In this document: piece by piece, positions 57,036-61,281 of the stretch | How positions within the stretch are numbered: position 1 is the stretch's first letter | Layout of the letters: every line of letters starts with the position of its first letter | From: Bacteroidia bacterium | GTDB lineage: Bacteria; Bacteroidota; Bacteroidia; J057 | Direction: 5' to 3' | Assembly (NCBI GenBank): GCA_033391075.1 | Contig: JAWPMV010000001.1 | Coordinates: forward strand, 2,108,001-2,172,000 | DNA length: 64,000 bases | The notes under the pieces: generated by a model | Seen by the model: the letters and a program-made list of their open reading frames with translations, nothing else | What the model was told of the DNA's origin: nothing | Databases searched by the model: none | Position numbers and translations under genes: made by a program

Positions 57036-58655
57036 CTAAAACTGGAAGTAGATAAATTGCTGGGGAGTGTCAAGCCCACTTTGGACGATAAATACCAGCC
57101 AGATAAAGATAGCAATGACACCAGCTTTAACCAGAAAGTGAGACTTGATAAAGTAGGTCTCTACAAAATTATCGATATCATCCGGGATAAAGTGGAGGAG
57201 ATATCCCATGATCATCAGGAGGAATACGCTTTGCTTCTGAGAAAGGACTTCCCCCACAATTTCACCCCCGAAGTTGAGGTAGATATTTTCAATCATGTCC
57301 CAGGCGAGTTCAAAGGATTCTGCCCGGAAGAAGATCCAGCAAAAGCAGACAAAATGGAAGGTGAATATCACGCTTAACAAATGGACTACTACACTGAGCA
57401 ATAGAGAAAACCAACCTTGCATAAACCATCGGGCCTGAACCAGGAAGTTAGCTACTTTATTATCGCTATTCTGGCCCTCTTCACTCAACATGAATTCATC
57501 AAGCTTATCCAGCCCTTTAGATAGCTTTCGTCGAACCCACTGCTTGGCATGTTTGAGCATACGGTCGATTGCAAGTGCAACTCCATGCAGGGCTCCCCAA
57601 ACCACAAATCGCCAGGAAGCACCATGCCAAAGTCCTCCCAACAACATAGTGATCAGCAGGTTGATATACGTCCTGAATTTGCCTCGCCTGTTTCCTCCCA
57701 TTGAGATGTAGAGATAATCTCTCAACCAGGAAGAAAGACTGATATGCCACCTTCGCCAAAATTCCTGTATGCTCCCGGATTGATAGGGAGAATTGAAGTT
57801 GATAGGAAGTCGAAATCCAAGTAAAAGCCCGATTCCTATGGCCATGTCTGAATACCCAGAAAAATCACAATATATCTGCAAGGCAAAGCCATAGACAGCC
57901 ATTAGGTTTTCGAAGCCTGTATGCAGGGTCGGTACCTCGAAAATGCCATCTACGAAATTGGTGCCAATGTAATCTGATATGACCGCTTTCTTGAAAAGGC
58001 CACTACAAATCAGAAGAAAAGCTCTCCCGAGATCTTCTGCACTGATCTCAATATTATTGCGGATTTGCGGGAGGAATTGAGCCGCCCGAACGATAGGACC
58101 TGCTACCAATTGCGGGAAGAAACTCACAAAGAATCCAAAATCCAGGATATTGTCCACAGGTTCCAGCTTGCGACGATAGATATCTATCGTATAGCTCATG
58201 GTCTGGAAGGTGAAAAAGGATATACCTACCGGAAGAATAATATCGAGATTGGAGAGGGGCGTAGCAAAGATTCCGTTAACGGTATCGATGAAGAAATTGG
58301 TGTACTTGAATATCGCCAGTATGCCCAGATTGACTACGATGCTGATGATGAGATAAATACGTGCTTTTTTTCTATCTGTCTCTCGATGGATCAGAAAGCC
58401 GAGGTAGTAATCAACCAGGGTAGAAAATATGAGGAGGAGGAAATAAAGTCCGCTTGATTTATAGTAGAAAAAGAGGGAGAAAAGGAAAACCCAGGCAGTC
58501 CTCATGGGTTTGCGGCCCAAAAGCAGCAGGTACACCCCCATGAATAAAAGAAATAAGAGGAGAAATTGTCCGGTATGGAAGAGCAAGGGTTGATCCGGAT
58601 CGTAAATAAATAGTTGAGCAATATTATCTGGACTCAGCCAATCGAAAATCCTCAT
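57036..58655 (-). CDS. MBOAT O-acyltransferase (AlgI/PatA type)
   Basis: 539 aa with about 11 membrane helices. MBOAT marks include FWRRWHISLSSWLRDYLYIS (299-318) and GGLWHGASWRF, whose H344 is the catalytic His. PVGISFFTFQTMSYTIDIYR is the AlgI-type block. It would move acetyl groups from the cytoplasm to a periplasmic acceptor. It overlaps by 32 bp the upstream SGNH gene, and the two look translationally coupled, as in peptidoglycan or exopolysaccharide O-acetylation pairs. Confidence 0.93.
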   Translation of the reverse strand: MRIFDWLSPDNIAQLFIYDPDQPLLFHTGQFLLLFLLFMGVYLLLLGRKPMRTAWVFLFSLFFYYKSSGLYFLLLIFSTLVDYYLGFLIHRETDRKKARIYLIISIVVNLGILAIFKYTNFFIDTVNGIFATPLSNLDIILPVGISFFTFQTMSYTIDIYRRKLEPVDNILDFGFFVSFFPQLVAGPIVRAAQFLPQIRNNIEISAEDLGRAFLLICSGLFKKAVISDYIGTNFVDGIFEVPTLHTGFENLMAVYGFALQIYCDFSGYSDMAIGIGLLLGFRLPINFNSPYQSGSIQEFWRRWHISLSSWLRDYLYISMGGNRRGKFRTYINLLITMLLGGLWHGASWRFVVWGALHGVALAIDRMLKHAKQWVRRKLSKGLDKLDEFMLSEEGQNSDNKVANFLVQARWFMQGWFSLLLSVVVHLLSVIFTFHFVCFCWIFFRAESFELAWDMIENIYLNFGGEIVGEVLSQKQSVFLLMIMGYLLHFIPDDIDNFVETYFIKSHFLVKAGVIAIFIWLVFIVQSGLDTPQQFIYFQF

Positions 58656-60114
58656 AGCCTTTCATCAACGCCCTAAATAATAGTTTACCTTGTAATTCAT
58701 AGCCCGCCTTCGTCAAGTGTAAGTAGTCTTCCTGTGCCAAATATGCATCTTTCCATTGACGTATGGAACCACTTCCCCCCATTATTTCAAAAAAATCCCA
58801 GCAAGCCAATTCATTTGCCAGCGAATAGGAGAGGAGAATGTTCTTGCTTCGCCTCACATTGGGATTTTCTTCTCGCCCTGATCGCAAGGCTTCGGGAGGG
58901 GTAGTGAATAGAATATCTGTATAGGGAATCTGCTGTTCTAAATCTGAGATAAACTCATCAATTTCATCAAAAAAGCGGTTGGCATTGAAGCCCCGATTTA
59001 CGCTTTCATTTGTACCTAAAGAAATGATAATCAGATCGGGATTCAAGGCTCGAACCTGTCTCCAGAAATTACCAGAGCGATTGAAATGCTTGAATTCAGC
59101 TCCATTCACTCCGATCATATGGTAAAGGATACCTTTTTTATGGGTGTTTTCCAGTACCATTCCATAAAGGACACTTTGACTTTGCAAAGACGTACTTTTT
59201 CTTCCTCTTAAATAAACTTCCTGCCCGGCTTCTTCCCAATTGACCTGGTGTAGGGTGTTCATCAGGGAACGATCAGAAATCGGGAGCAAATAACCGCTTC
59301 CATTGTTTTGGATTCGTTTTCTGGGTACTGCCTTTCTGCTTCCTTTGGAGACTTTCAATTTTTGCCCCGCATAGATTACACTTGATTCCAATCCATTCAA
59401 CTCTTTGAGCTCCCGAATTGTCAGGCCATATTTTTTGGCTACCCGGGTTAGATTATCGCCACTTTCTATGATATGATATTCTGCATCCGTATTTACTACA
59501 GGAGGTGCAACATATATCGGAGAATTTCCGGTAAATGAAGTTGGACTGATTTGTAAGTCGAAATTGATAGGACCCTGTTCTGCAAAAAGGGTTACCTGGT
59601 TGAAAGAATAATCCAGTTCATATGGATTTTCGCCCAAACGGATACGCAACTCAAAATTGGGGCTTTGGGAACGTATGCCCATGCCACTCACTCCTGTTCG
59701 AAGATCCTGAGGAACGCTGCGTGAATTTCTACGACTTTCCCAGCGAATATTGCTACGGGCAGTAATATCCTTGGGACCATTGGTCTTGGCAACATTATAT
59801 GGAAAGATCAGGCCTCTTCCTGCTGATCCGAATCTCTTTTGTAATTCCATTCGAACGATACCCGAAAACCAGTCTGCCTGGATATGGGAATCCCCTATAT
59901 GGACAATGTTGAGTTGTTTTTTTTCGCCTGATTCGAGCTGAGATAGTTGGCGGTAAAACTGACGTAATCCTTTTAGATTATTGTCAATTTCATTTATCTC
60001 TTCTTTGATAAATGGGTAGCTGCTGCCTCGGTAAAAGGTATCCTGCGCCTGTATAATTGCACATAGATTAAAGAACACAAAAGCAATACAAACGCTGGGG
60101 AGCTTATGAAGCAT
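58624..60114 (-). CDS. SGNH-family hydrolase/transferase with an internal LysM domain
   Basis: 496 aa. Signal peptide ending at IQAQ. SGNH block I is VHIGDSH (S76). Block III is ISLGTNE (N369), and block V is DYLHLT (D463, H466). Between blocks I and III, residues 212-256, is a LysM domain (EYHIIESGDNLTRVAKKYGL, VIYAGQKLKV) that would bind peptidoglycan or a related GlcNAc polymer. Partner of the MBOAT protein, with which its end overlaps. It may act as periplasmic O-acetyl transferase or esterase. Confidence 0.9.
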   Translation of the reverse strand: MLHKLPSVCIAFVFFNLCAIIQAQDTFYRGSSYPFIKEEINEIDNNLKGLRQFYRQLSQLESGEKKQLNIVHIGDSHIQADWFSGIVRMELQKRFGSAGRGLIFPYNVAKTNGPKDITARSNIRWESRRNSRSVPQDLRTGVSGMGIRSQSPNFELRIRLGENPYELDYSFNQVTLFAEQGPINFDLQISPTSFTGNSPIYVAPPVVNTDAEYHIIESGDNLTRVAKKYGLTIRELKELNGLESSVIYAGQKLKVSKGSRKAVPRKRIQNNGSGYLLPISDRSLMNTLHQVNWEEAGQEVYLRGRKSTSLQSQSVLYGMVLENTHKKGILYHMIGVNGAEFKHFNRSGNFWRQVRALNPDLIIISLGTNESVNRGFNANRFFDEIDEFISDLEQQIPYTDILFTTPPEALRSGREENPNVRRSKNILLSYSLANELACWDFFEIMGGSGSIRQWKDAYLAQEDYLHLTKAGYELQGKLLFRALMKGYEDFRLAESR

Positions 60115-60252: not shown

Positions 60253-61281
60253 ATGGCCAGAATAAATGAAAAGAAAATTCCCTTTAGTATAGATCGGGGA
60301 TTGCGGAGATACCTCAAGAATTATTTGCGGGAAATGAGTCTTCCTATCCAGTATTCTGACCTTTCTCGATACAGTGAAGGGATCACCCTTTATGATAAAT
60401 ACGGAAATGATACCCTCTGGATTTCTCTCCTGTATAGCCAGGATGATCTCAATCATATCAATGAAAGTCTAAAGCAGATATATGCCATTCTGAAAGCAAA
60501 TGGAGATATGTCTGTAATGCAGCACCTGTATGTTGATCGTATAGACCTTTGCCTGTATGGAAATACCAATCCTTTTCGGGTACGTGTGGTGAATAAAATC
60601 AATGACAACTTTGATTATTTCTACATCAAACATGCAGATGCTTCGCGCATATATGGCCTGGAATTAGAACATTTACTTTCTCCTAATCATATGAGTTATG
60701 TAGTAGATGGAGATACTTTGATTGAGGAACATATCGCAGGTATACCAGGAGAGGAATTTATCCAAAACTATCTCAATACCGGCCGGGTTGAAAATGAGAT
60801 TCGTTTGGCCAAAGAATTTGTCAAATTCAATGAACGTTGTTTTGTGCGTTTGTTGGGCGATATGCATTCCAGCAATTATGTTATCGAAATCATGCCTGAT
60901 TTTGAGGACATTCATTACCGCATTCGAGCCATAGACTTCGACCAACAATCATATGAACCTCGCAAAAGTATCTATATGCCTCAGTATTTTAAGCAGAATA
61001 TGGGCATCATAGATGTAGGATTGAGGCATATGACTCCTACTACTGTACGCCAATACCAGAAAGAAGAGAGATCCATGATCTCGAGCAGGATTCGTTATTC
61101 AATTCGGCAGGTAAGAGATCTGATGAAATATATGGTAAAAAGTGAATTGGCTCCGCAAGAGTACGTGGAGGGATTAGGGAAGGAGTTGGCCGAGCACTAC
61201 AAAATTGACAAATTTAATACAGGGAGAACCATGGGAGATCTGGTTAAGCTGAGTCTGGAACTTCTGGTGGAGAATAATTAG
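60253..61281 (+). CDS. Predicted kinase-like (APH-type) protein
   Basis: 342 aa, cytoplasmic. The order of motifs matches a protein-kinase-like fold of the aminoglycoside phosphotransferase kind. K126 in FYIKHAD may be the beta-3 Lys, and E137 or E139 in YGLELEHL the alpha-C Glu. TLIEEHIAGIPGEEF resembles the hinge. LGDMHSSN (D203, N208) matches the GDxHxxN catalytic loop, and IDFD (D228) the metal-binding DFG position. The gene is divergent from the MBOAT/SGNH pair, 138 bp away. No known family was recognised; phosphorylation of a small molecule or lipid is inferred, not shown. Confidence 0.7.
   Translation: MARINEKKIPFSIDRGLRRYLKNYLREMSLPIQYSDLSRYSEGITLYDKYGNDTLWISLLYSQDDLNHINESLKQIYAILKANGDMSVMQHLYVDRIDLCLYGNTNPFRVRVVNKINDNFDYFYIKHADASRIYGLELEHLLSPNHMSYVVDGDTLIEEHIAGIPGEEFIQNYLNTGRVENEIRLAKEFVKFNERCFVRLLGDMHSSNYVIEIMPDFEDIHYRIRAIDFDQQSYEPRKSIYMPQYFKQNMGIIDVGLRHMTPTTVRQYQKEERSMISSRIRYSIRQVRDLMKYMVKSELAPQEYVEGLGKELAEHYKIDKFNTGRTMGDLVKLSLELLVENN

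Follow-up and report, generated by a model that had tools for sequence, protein, structure and literature searches.

A conserved kinase-like protein of Bacteroidota with a predicted fold nearest to the PI3K/PI4K/PIKK group

The window, i.e., the whole stretch of 64,000 nucleotides which was analysed from the genome of a Bacteroidia bacterium (9,489,248 bases), carries on its plus strand at positions 60253–61281 an open reading frame for a kinase-like protein of 342 amino acids, with a computed mass of 40.5 kDa and a computed pI of 6.1. The reading frame is a real gene, present in single copy in this genome, and its start methionine is conserved in at least 90% of 66 aligned proteins. The maximal mean hydropathy over 19 residues was 0.66, and thus no transmembrane stretch is present. 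Two genes on the minus strand are mentioned as context only, an SGNH hydrolase with an internal LysM domain (58624–60114), which is the divergent neighbour, and an MBOAT O-acyltransferase (57036–58655), for which DltB was the top NCBIfam model, below its cut-off. The spacing of 138 bp between the kinase-like gene and this pair, reported in a preliminary description of the DNA, was confirmed, the nearer gene of the pair being the SGNH hydrolase. In the latter protein wall binding is combined with an esterase, the LysM domain (residues 214–255) preceding the GDSL-type catalytic part.

The motifs IKHA, GLELEHL, TLIEEHIAG, LGDMHSSN and AIDFD, to which the preliminary description had drawn attention, were all found, in the order claimed. 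For the analysis of conservation 80 proteins, including that of the window, were chosen from 171 loci (some genomes are in this set twice); all had at least 300 amino acids and less than 75% mutual identity, and the other 79 showed 36–74% identity to the window protein. Invariant positions numbered 40 of 342. They include residues of five segments on the plus strand (C100, N104, P107 and R109 in the turn between β1 and β2 of the N-lobe, residues 100–109, positions 60550–60579; K126, D129, R132, G135 and E139 in the β3 lysine and αC region, residues 126–139, 60628–60669; E158, H160 and G163 in the hinge segment TLIEEHIAG, residues 155–163, 60715–60741; L201, G202, D203, M204 and N208 in the catalytic loop LLGDMHSSN, residues 200–208, 60850–60876; I227, D228, F229, D230 and Q231 in the metal-binding segment IDFDQQ, residues 227–232, 60931–60948). 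Residue 205 in the catalytic loop is variable, with histidine in 43 and arginine in the other 37 of the 80 proteins. From its position in the structural model, the segment 100–109 is probably the equivalent of a phosphate loop; D203 would be the catalytic residue, N208 a metal ligand and D228 another.

Loss of D203, N208 or D228 in homologues, which had been set beforehand as evidence against a kinase, occurred in none of the 80 proteins. Judged by sequence, K126, D203, N208 at +5 from the aspartate, and D228, each present in 80 of 80, make up the active-site set of the protein kinase-like (PKL) superfamily, namely lysine, catalytic aspartate, asparagine and metal-binding aspartate. The chance that these four named positions would all be invariant is about 1.6e-4, or about 1.7e-5 with E139 as a fifth position; thus the quoted motifs are more than chance. 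In comparisons with six close relatives dN was 0.15–0.22 and dS was saturated, and in a closer pair of homologues (L036/L037) dN was 0.055 and dS 1.7; over nine pairs dN ranged from 0.05 to 0.22, and dS was saturated in eight of them, the ninth having the value 1.7.

The preliminary description had stated that the family could not be named, and this still holds: no match to the protein was obtained with Pfam and NCBIfam, even at E values up to 10, or with PADLOC and PHROGs, and searches for it among plasmids and phages yielded nothing. Sequences of the PDB, queried with the protein and with two profiles, gave only noise and no credible relative. A Pfam scan of 66 homologues produced scattered matches, none of them in more than five members. 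Specifically, neither PF01636 (APH) nor PF07804 (HipA_C/HipA) nor PF00454 matched the window protein at E values up to 10; PF01636 was also absent from the 25 families shown of the 32 matched by the 66 homologues. PF00454 gave no match in the window's own genome, and in 296 genomes none above the cut-off; there were 14 weak matches in 13 genomes, none of them at the kinase gene. A weak PF00454-like match, confined to the catalytic loop, was seen in open frames of 550–568 amino acids from genus g38 (L174, L175, L179 and L181), which are possibly another unassigned kinase-like family.

Profiles were also compared with hhalign. The family profile and 20 APH proteins (30 loci were fetched, and 10 were dropped because the reading frame picked exceeded 520 amino acids) aligned over 94 columns with P 0.098 and a probability of 0.6%, which is not significant, although D203, N208 and D228 stood in the right register. 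With 18 HipA proteins the alignment covered 46 columns at P 0.26, with D203 and N208 in register, and APH was the better of these two family profiles; only 10 columns were aligned with a single VPS34 segment, and the global mode was uninformative. By these profile comparisons the protein is placed in no known family, and it should not be filed under PF00454, APH or HipA.

Structure prediction, which had been proposed as a check of the kinase-like fold, supported it. An AlphaFold2 model of the window protein, based on an alignment of 66 rows, reached a pLDDT of 85.9 and a pTM of 0.85, and a second model, of the homologue from Arcicella aurantiaca (L050), a pLDDT of 86.8; both have the two-lobed kinase fold, but most of the alignment rows are common to both, so that they are not independent. 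In the window model a helical region with two strands (residues 15–91) is followed by β1 (92–100), β2 (108–114), β3 (119–127, with K126), αC (130–142), β4 (149–152) and β5 (155–159), and then by two helices, the catalytic loop, a hairpin (209–226), the IDFD segment and C-terminal helices. Two confident models and the invariance of every residue named thus support a two-lobed kinase fold of the PKL superfamily, as predicted.

A Foldseek search of the PDB with the window model placed VPS34 at ranks 1–5 and SMG1 sixth, followed by many protein kinases; with the L050 model the protein kinase STK33 came first and VPS34 second, again followed by many protein kinases. The top 1000 chains of Foldseek were the input for realignment, of which 988 were realigned to the window model and 979 to the L050 model. 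The best match to the window model with VIA-align was VPS34 (Z 12.1, 265 aligned residues, rmsd 4.4). All of the best 50 of the 988 belonged to the PI3K/PI4K/PIKK group (Z 10.1–12.1, 238–275 residues, 3.9–5.1 Å), as did all of the best 50 of the 979 (Z 11.0–12.7); the ordinary protein kinases among the realigned chains therefore scored lower. Chains with Z of at least 8 numbered 233 and 284, respectively. APH and HipA chains were absent from the best 50 with both models, which is no argument against either family, and APH chains may have lain outside the top-1000 sets. A fold search of BFVD returned mostly viral protein kinases with low TM-scores. Thus, the predicted fold appears nearest to PI3K/PI4K/PIKK among the best 50 matches listed for either model, with Foldseek's own lists mixed.

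The motifs point in a similar direction. The segment of VPS34, which was confirmed letter for letter in PDB chains, reads IFKHGDDLRQD, GVGDRHLDN and HIDFG, and the new family reads YIKxADASR (with A128 and S131 variable), LLGDM[HR]xxN and IDFDQ. In K126-x-A-D129-x-x-R132 and KHGDDLR of VPS34 the lysine, the aspartate at +3 and the arginine at +6 coincide; G-D203-M-H/R-x-x-N208 and GDRHLDN have equal spacing from D to N, and I-D228-F corresponds to IDFG. There are also differences: the gap between the catalytic and the metal-binding aspartate is 25 residues in the new family and 18 in VPS34, the distance from the lysine to the hinge is 32 residues (K126 to E158) as against about 45 in VPS34 (to the FMQFI strand), the DFG of the PI3K group is replaced by DFD (D230 for glycine, 80/80), and the arginine of DRH by methionine (M204, 80/80). 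The best realigned fold matches, such as VPS34, PI4KIIIbeta, ATM/Tel1, mTOR and SMG1 (PF00454), had only 8–13% identity, and the new proteins are too small to contain the helical, C2 or FAT domains of that group. The motifs seem to resemble the PI3K group more than APH kinases; this is a resemblance and not a statistical match.

Homologues are widespread. A scan of genomes of named species confirmed 421 relatives; the top 80 (59–80% identity) were retained, and their record titles were mostly Bacteroidota. Many relatives are presumably Cytophagales, judging by names such as Marivirga, Algoriphagus, Runella, Fulvivirga and Arcicella. The gene was present in 23 of 60 relatives in a first sample and in 82 of 296 Bacteroidota genomes of at least 95% completeness in a second sample, with the window's own genome counted in both. 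Within the window's class the figures were 58 of 75 in the second and 10 of 38 in the first sample; the distribution is patchy and differs between samples. One genome of the 296 (G145; loci L147 and L148) has two full copies, the second one with 37% identity to the window protein and with K126, D203, N208 and D228 kept. Another (G302; locus L153), still counted among the 82, contains only two fragments, each with a stop codon, and there the gene looks to be decaying; apart from these two genomes it was always single copy. In a tree of 78 proteins nine of the 12 genome families with several members were monophyletic (the exceptions being f21, f42 and f47), which fits mainly vertical descent. 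Two metagenome-assembled genomes labelled Polyangia (L005 and L006) contained the gene at 71–72% identity, with GC3 values of 0.98 and 0.83 and on GC-rich contigs. If the bins are correct, the gene may have been transferred to Myxococcota and become adapted to its new host.

The occurrence of other genes was compared between the 82 genomes with and the 214 without the kinase gene. BshC was found in 82 of 82 and 209 of 214, respectively; it is hence uninformative, and bacillithiol was discarded as an explanation of the distribution. SprA of the type 9 secretion system was present in 80 of 82 genomes with the kinase and in 154 of 214 without (raw p 1e-7, uncorrected for kinship). Inside the window's class this association vanished (56/58 versus 15/17, p 0.22), the absences of SprA listed outside the class all fell in one family (f58), and two genomes, G061 and G322, have the kinase and lack SprA. 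Hence a link with type 9 secretion, although it may exist, was given no weight here.

The gene neighbourhood varies. A same-strand upstream gene within 60 bp, overlaps included, was found at 77 of 169 loci, and thus the kinase gene appears to be often part of operons, but clustering of the neighbours at 171 loci revealed no partner common to different families. The commonest neighbours were bound to lineages: a DUF3817 protein directly upstream at 28 loci, a GT28-like glycosyltransferase upstream at 13 loci (directly at nine), and a family-4 glycosyltransferase immediately upstream at 10 loci from other classes of the phylum (L113, L114, L116–L118, L124, L133–L135 and L138; with gaps of 8–89 bp in the five printed), which we take to be BshA-like. 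A Pfam scan of 30 of the 121 same-strand upstream neighbours identified, e.g., a Mur ligase, a RodA/FtsW protein, DnaJ, DNA polymerase III delta, arginase, DHQ synthase and flavodoxin; four of the 30 were without any Pfam match. The operon partners are unrelated housekeeping genes which vary by lineage. Since the residues of the protein are kept and its neighbours are not, the kinase more likely acts in trans.

We consider it rather probable (about 60%) that the gene product is a soluble and active phosphotransferase which uses ATP and belongs to a new PKL family, with lobes arranged most like those of PI3K/PI4K/PIKK, and that it works in trans on one conserved substrate in the cytosol. In such an enzyme K126, together with E139 or E137 of αC, would hold the phosphates of ATP, D203 would position or activate the hydroxyl of the acceptor, and N208 and D228 would bind magnesium. 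The single conserved substrate in the cytosol could be a protein or a metabolite, and as a guess we lean slightly towards a protein over a small metabolite; it would not be phosphatidylinositol, and the kinase would be no part of the neighbouring O-acylation pair. The residues of the catalytic-looking site would also be compatible with AMPylation or another transfer. Against a PI3K-like reading one has to count the mixture of PI3K and ordinary protein kinases in the Foldseek lists and the lack of a profile link to PF00454.

The preliminary description had spoken of an APH-type kinase, and an enzyme of the APH/choline-kinase branch which phosphorylates a small molecule, such as a sugar, an amino alcohol or a cofactor precursor, is the strongest competitor, possible although in our opinion unlikely. 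That branch (PF01636) shares the two-lobed PKL fold, a similar size and the D...N...D active site, the last of which is common to it and the PI3K branch, and the register of D203, N208 and D228 over the 94 columns mentioned above would agree with it, at the P value and probability given there. However, no APH profile matched the protein, the listed fold matches (best 50, both models) were all of PI3K/PI4K/PIKK type, and two residues before the catalytic aspartate APH kinases have histidine (HNDFKxDN or HNDYKYDN), whereas the new family (LLGDMxxxN) has L201 in 80 of 80 proteins. The label "APH-type" was thus not upheld.

A growth-regulating protein kinase like HipA, possibly in a toxin-antitoxin arrangement, appears improbable. 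HipA (PF07804) is a bacterial PKL kinase which also has a D-x-H-x-x-N loop, it phosphorylates a protein (PMC9758233), and hhalign set two of the residues in register; but the HipA_C model did not match, the alignment with the 18 HipA proteins was short and of poor P value, a true HipA is encoded separately in the window's genome, and no HipB- or antitoxin-like gene occurred among the 30 scanned of the 121 same-strand upstream neighbours. Still less credit is given to a phosphatidylinositol or inositol-lipid kinase of Bacteroidota, in spite of a fold nearest to VPS34 and PI4KIIIbeta. According to Heaver et al. (PMC9246714), some Bacteroidetes make inositol lipids, through myo-inositol-phosphate synthase. 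The gene for this enzyme (PF01658) was present in 13 of the 82 genomes with and 36 of the 214 genomes without the kinase (Fisher p 1.0), within the window's class in 4 of 58 as against 5 of 17, and it was absent from the window's own genome; the kinase thus does not co-occur with inositol synthesis, which makes an inositol lipid an unlikely substrate in spite of the fold. The proposed partnership with the divergent MBOAT/SGNH pair, e.g., by phosphorylating an acyl donor or acceptor, can hardly be maintained: the same divergent layout recurs at L004 and L084, two retrievals of a single locus, but neither gene was found at the remaining 168 of the 170 other loci (55 of the 170 are shorter than 6 kb, where a more distant copy would be missed), and among nine other kinase-bearing genomes of the window's family in the first sample the pair was found in one only (G004, L084).

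Remote bacterial kinases of this kind have been described before, and the new family was compared with them by their descriptions only. Kannan et al. 2007 (PMC1821047) list 20 PKL families; PI3K is treated there as one without sequence similarity beyond key motifs and is counted among the eukaryote-specific families. Krysinska et al. 2022 (PMC9758233) reported 13 novel kinase families in Legionella and, for the phosphatidylinositol-kinase-like proteins in Legionella, evidence in favour of a bacterial origin. Known bacterial proteins of the PI-kinase type are, for example, the effectors LepB, AnkK and MavQ of Legionella (same source) and the PI3-kinase effector Risk1 of Rickettsia (PMC7298712), again compared by description. 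These are effectors of intracellular bacteria which act on host lipids, whereas the new family is chromosomal and single-copy, and its carriers are, by record titles, mostly free-living Bacteroidota. A search of the literature by title and abstract, which cannot be searched by sequence, yielded no description of a chromosomal Bacteroidota family with this fold.

The protein is best described as a member of a new PKL family whose predicted fold is like that of PI3K/PIKK. A phylum-wide family with 40 of 342 positions invariant and with no match in Pfam, NCBIfam, PADLOC and PHROGs marks an obvious gap in the bacterial kinome. If the PI3K/PIKK-like architecture is confirmed, a group investigated mainly in eukaryotes would gain a compact relative in bacteria, and Bacteroidota a new regulator or enzyme that is open to experimental test. 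Tentatively, and at somewhat less than even odds, it may be an ancient, chromosomal and largely vertically inherited kinase of the PI3K/PIKK branch in Bacteroidota, which phosphorylates proteins or metabolites in the physiology of its own cell and does not act on host lipids; if this is true, the family would bear on the question of a bacterial origin of that branch.
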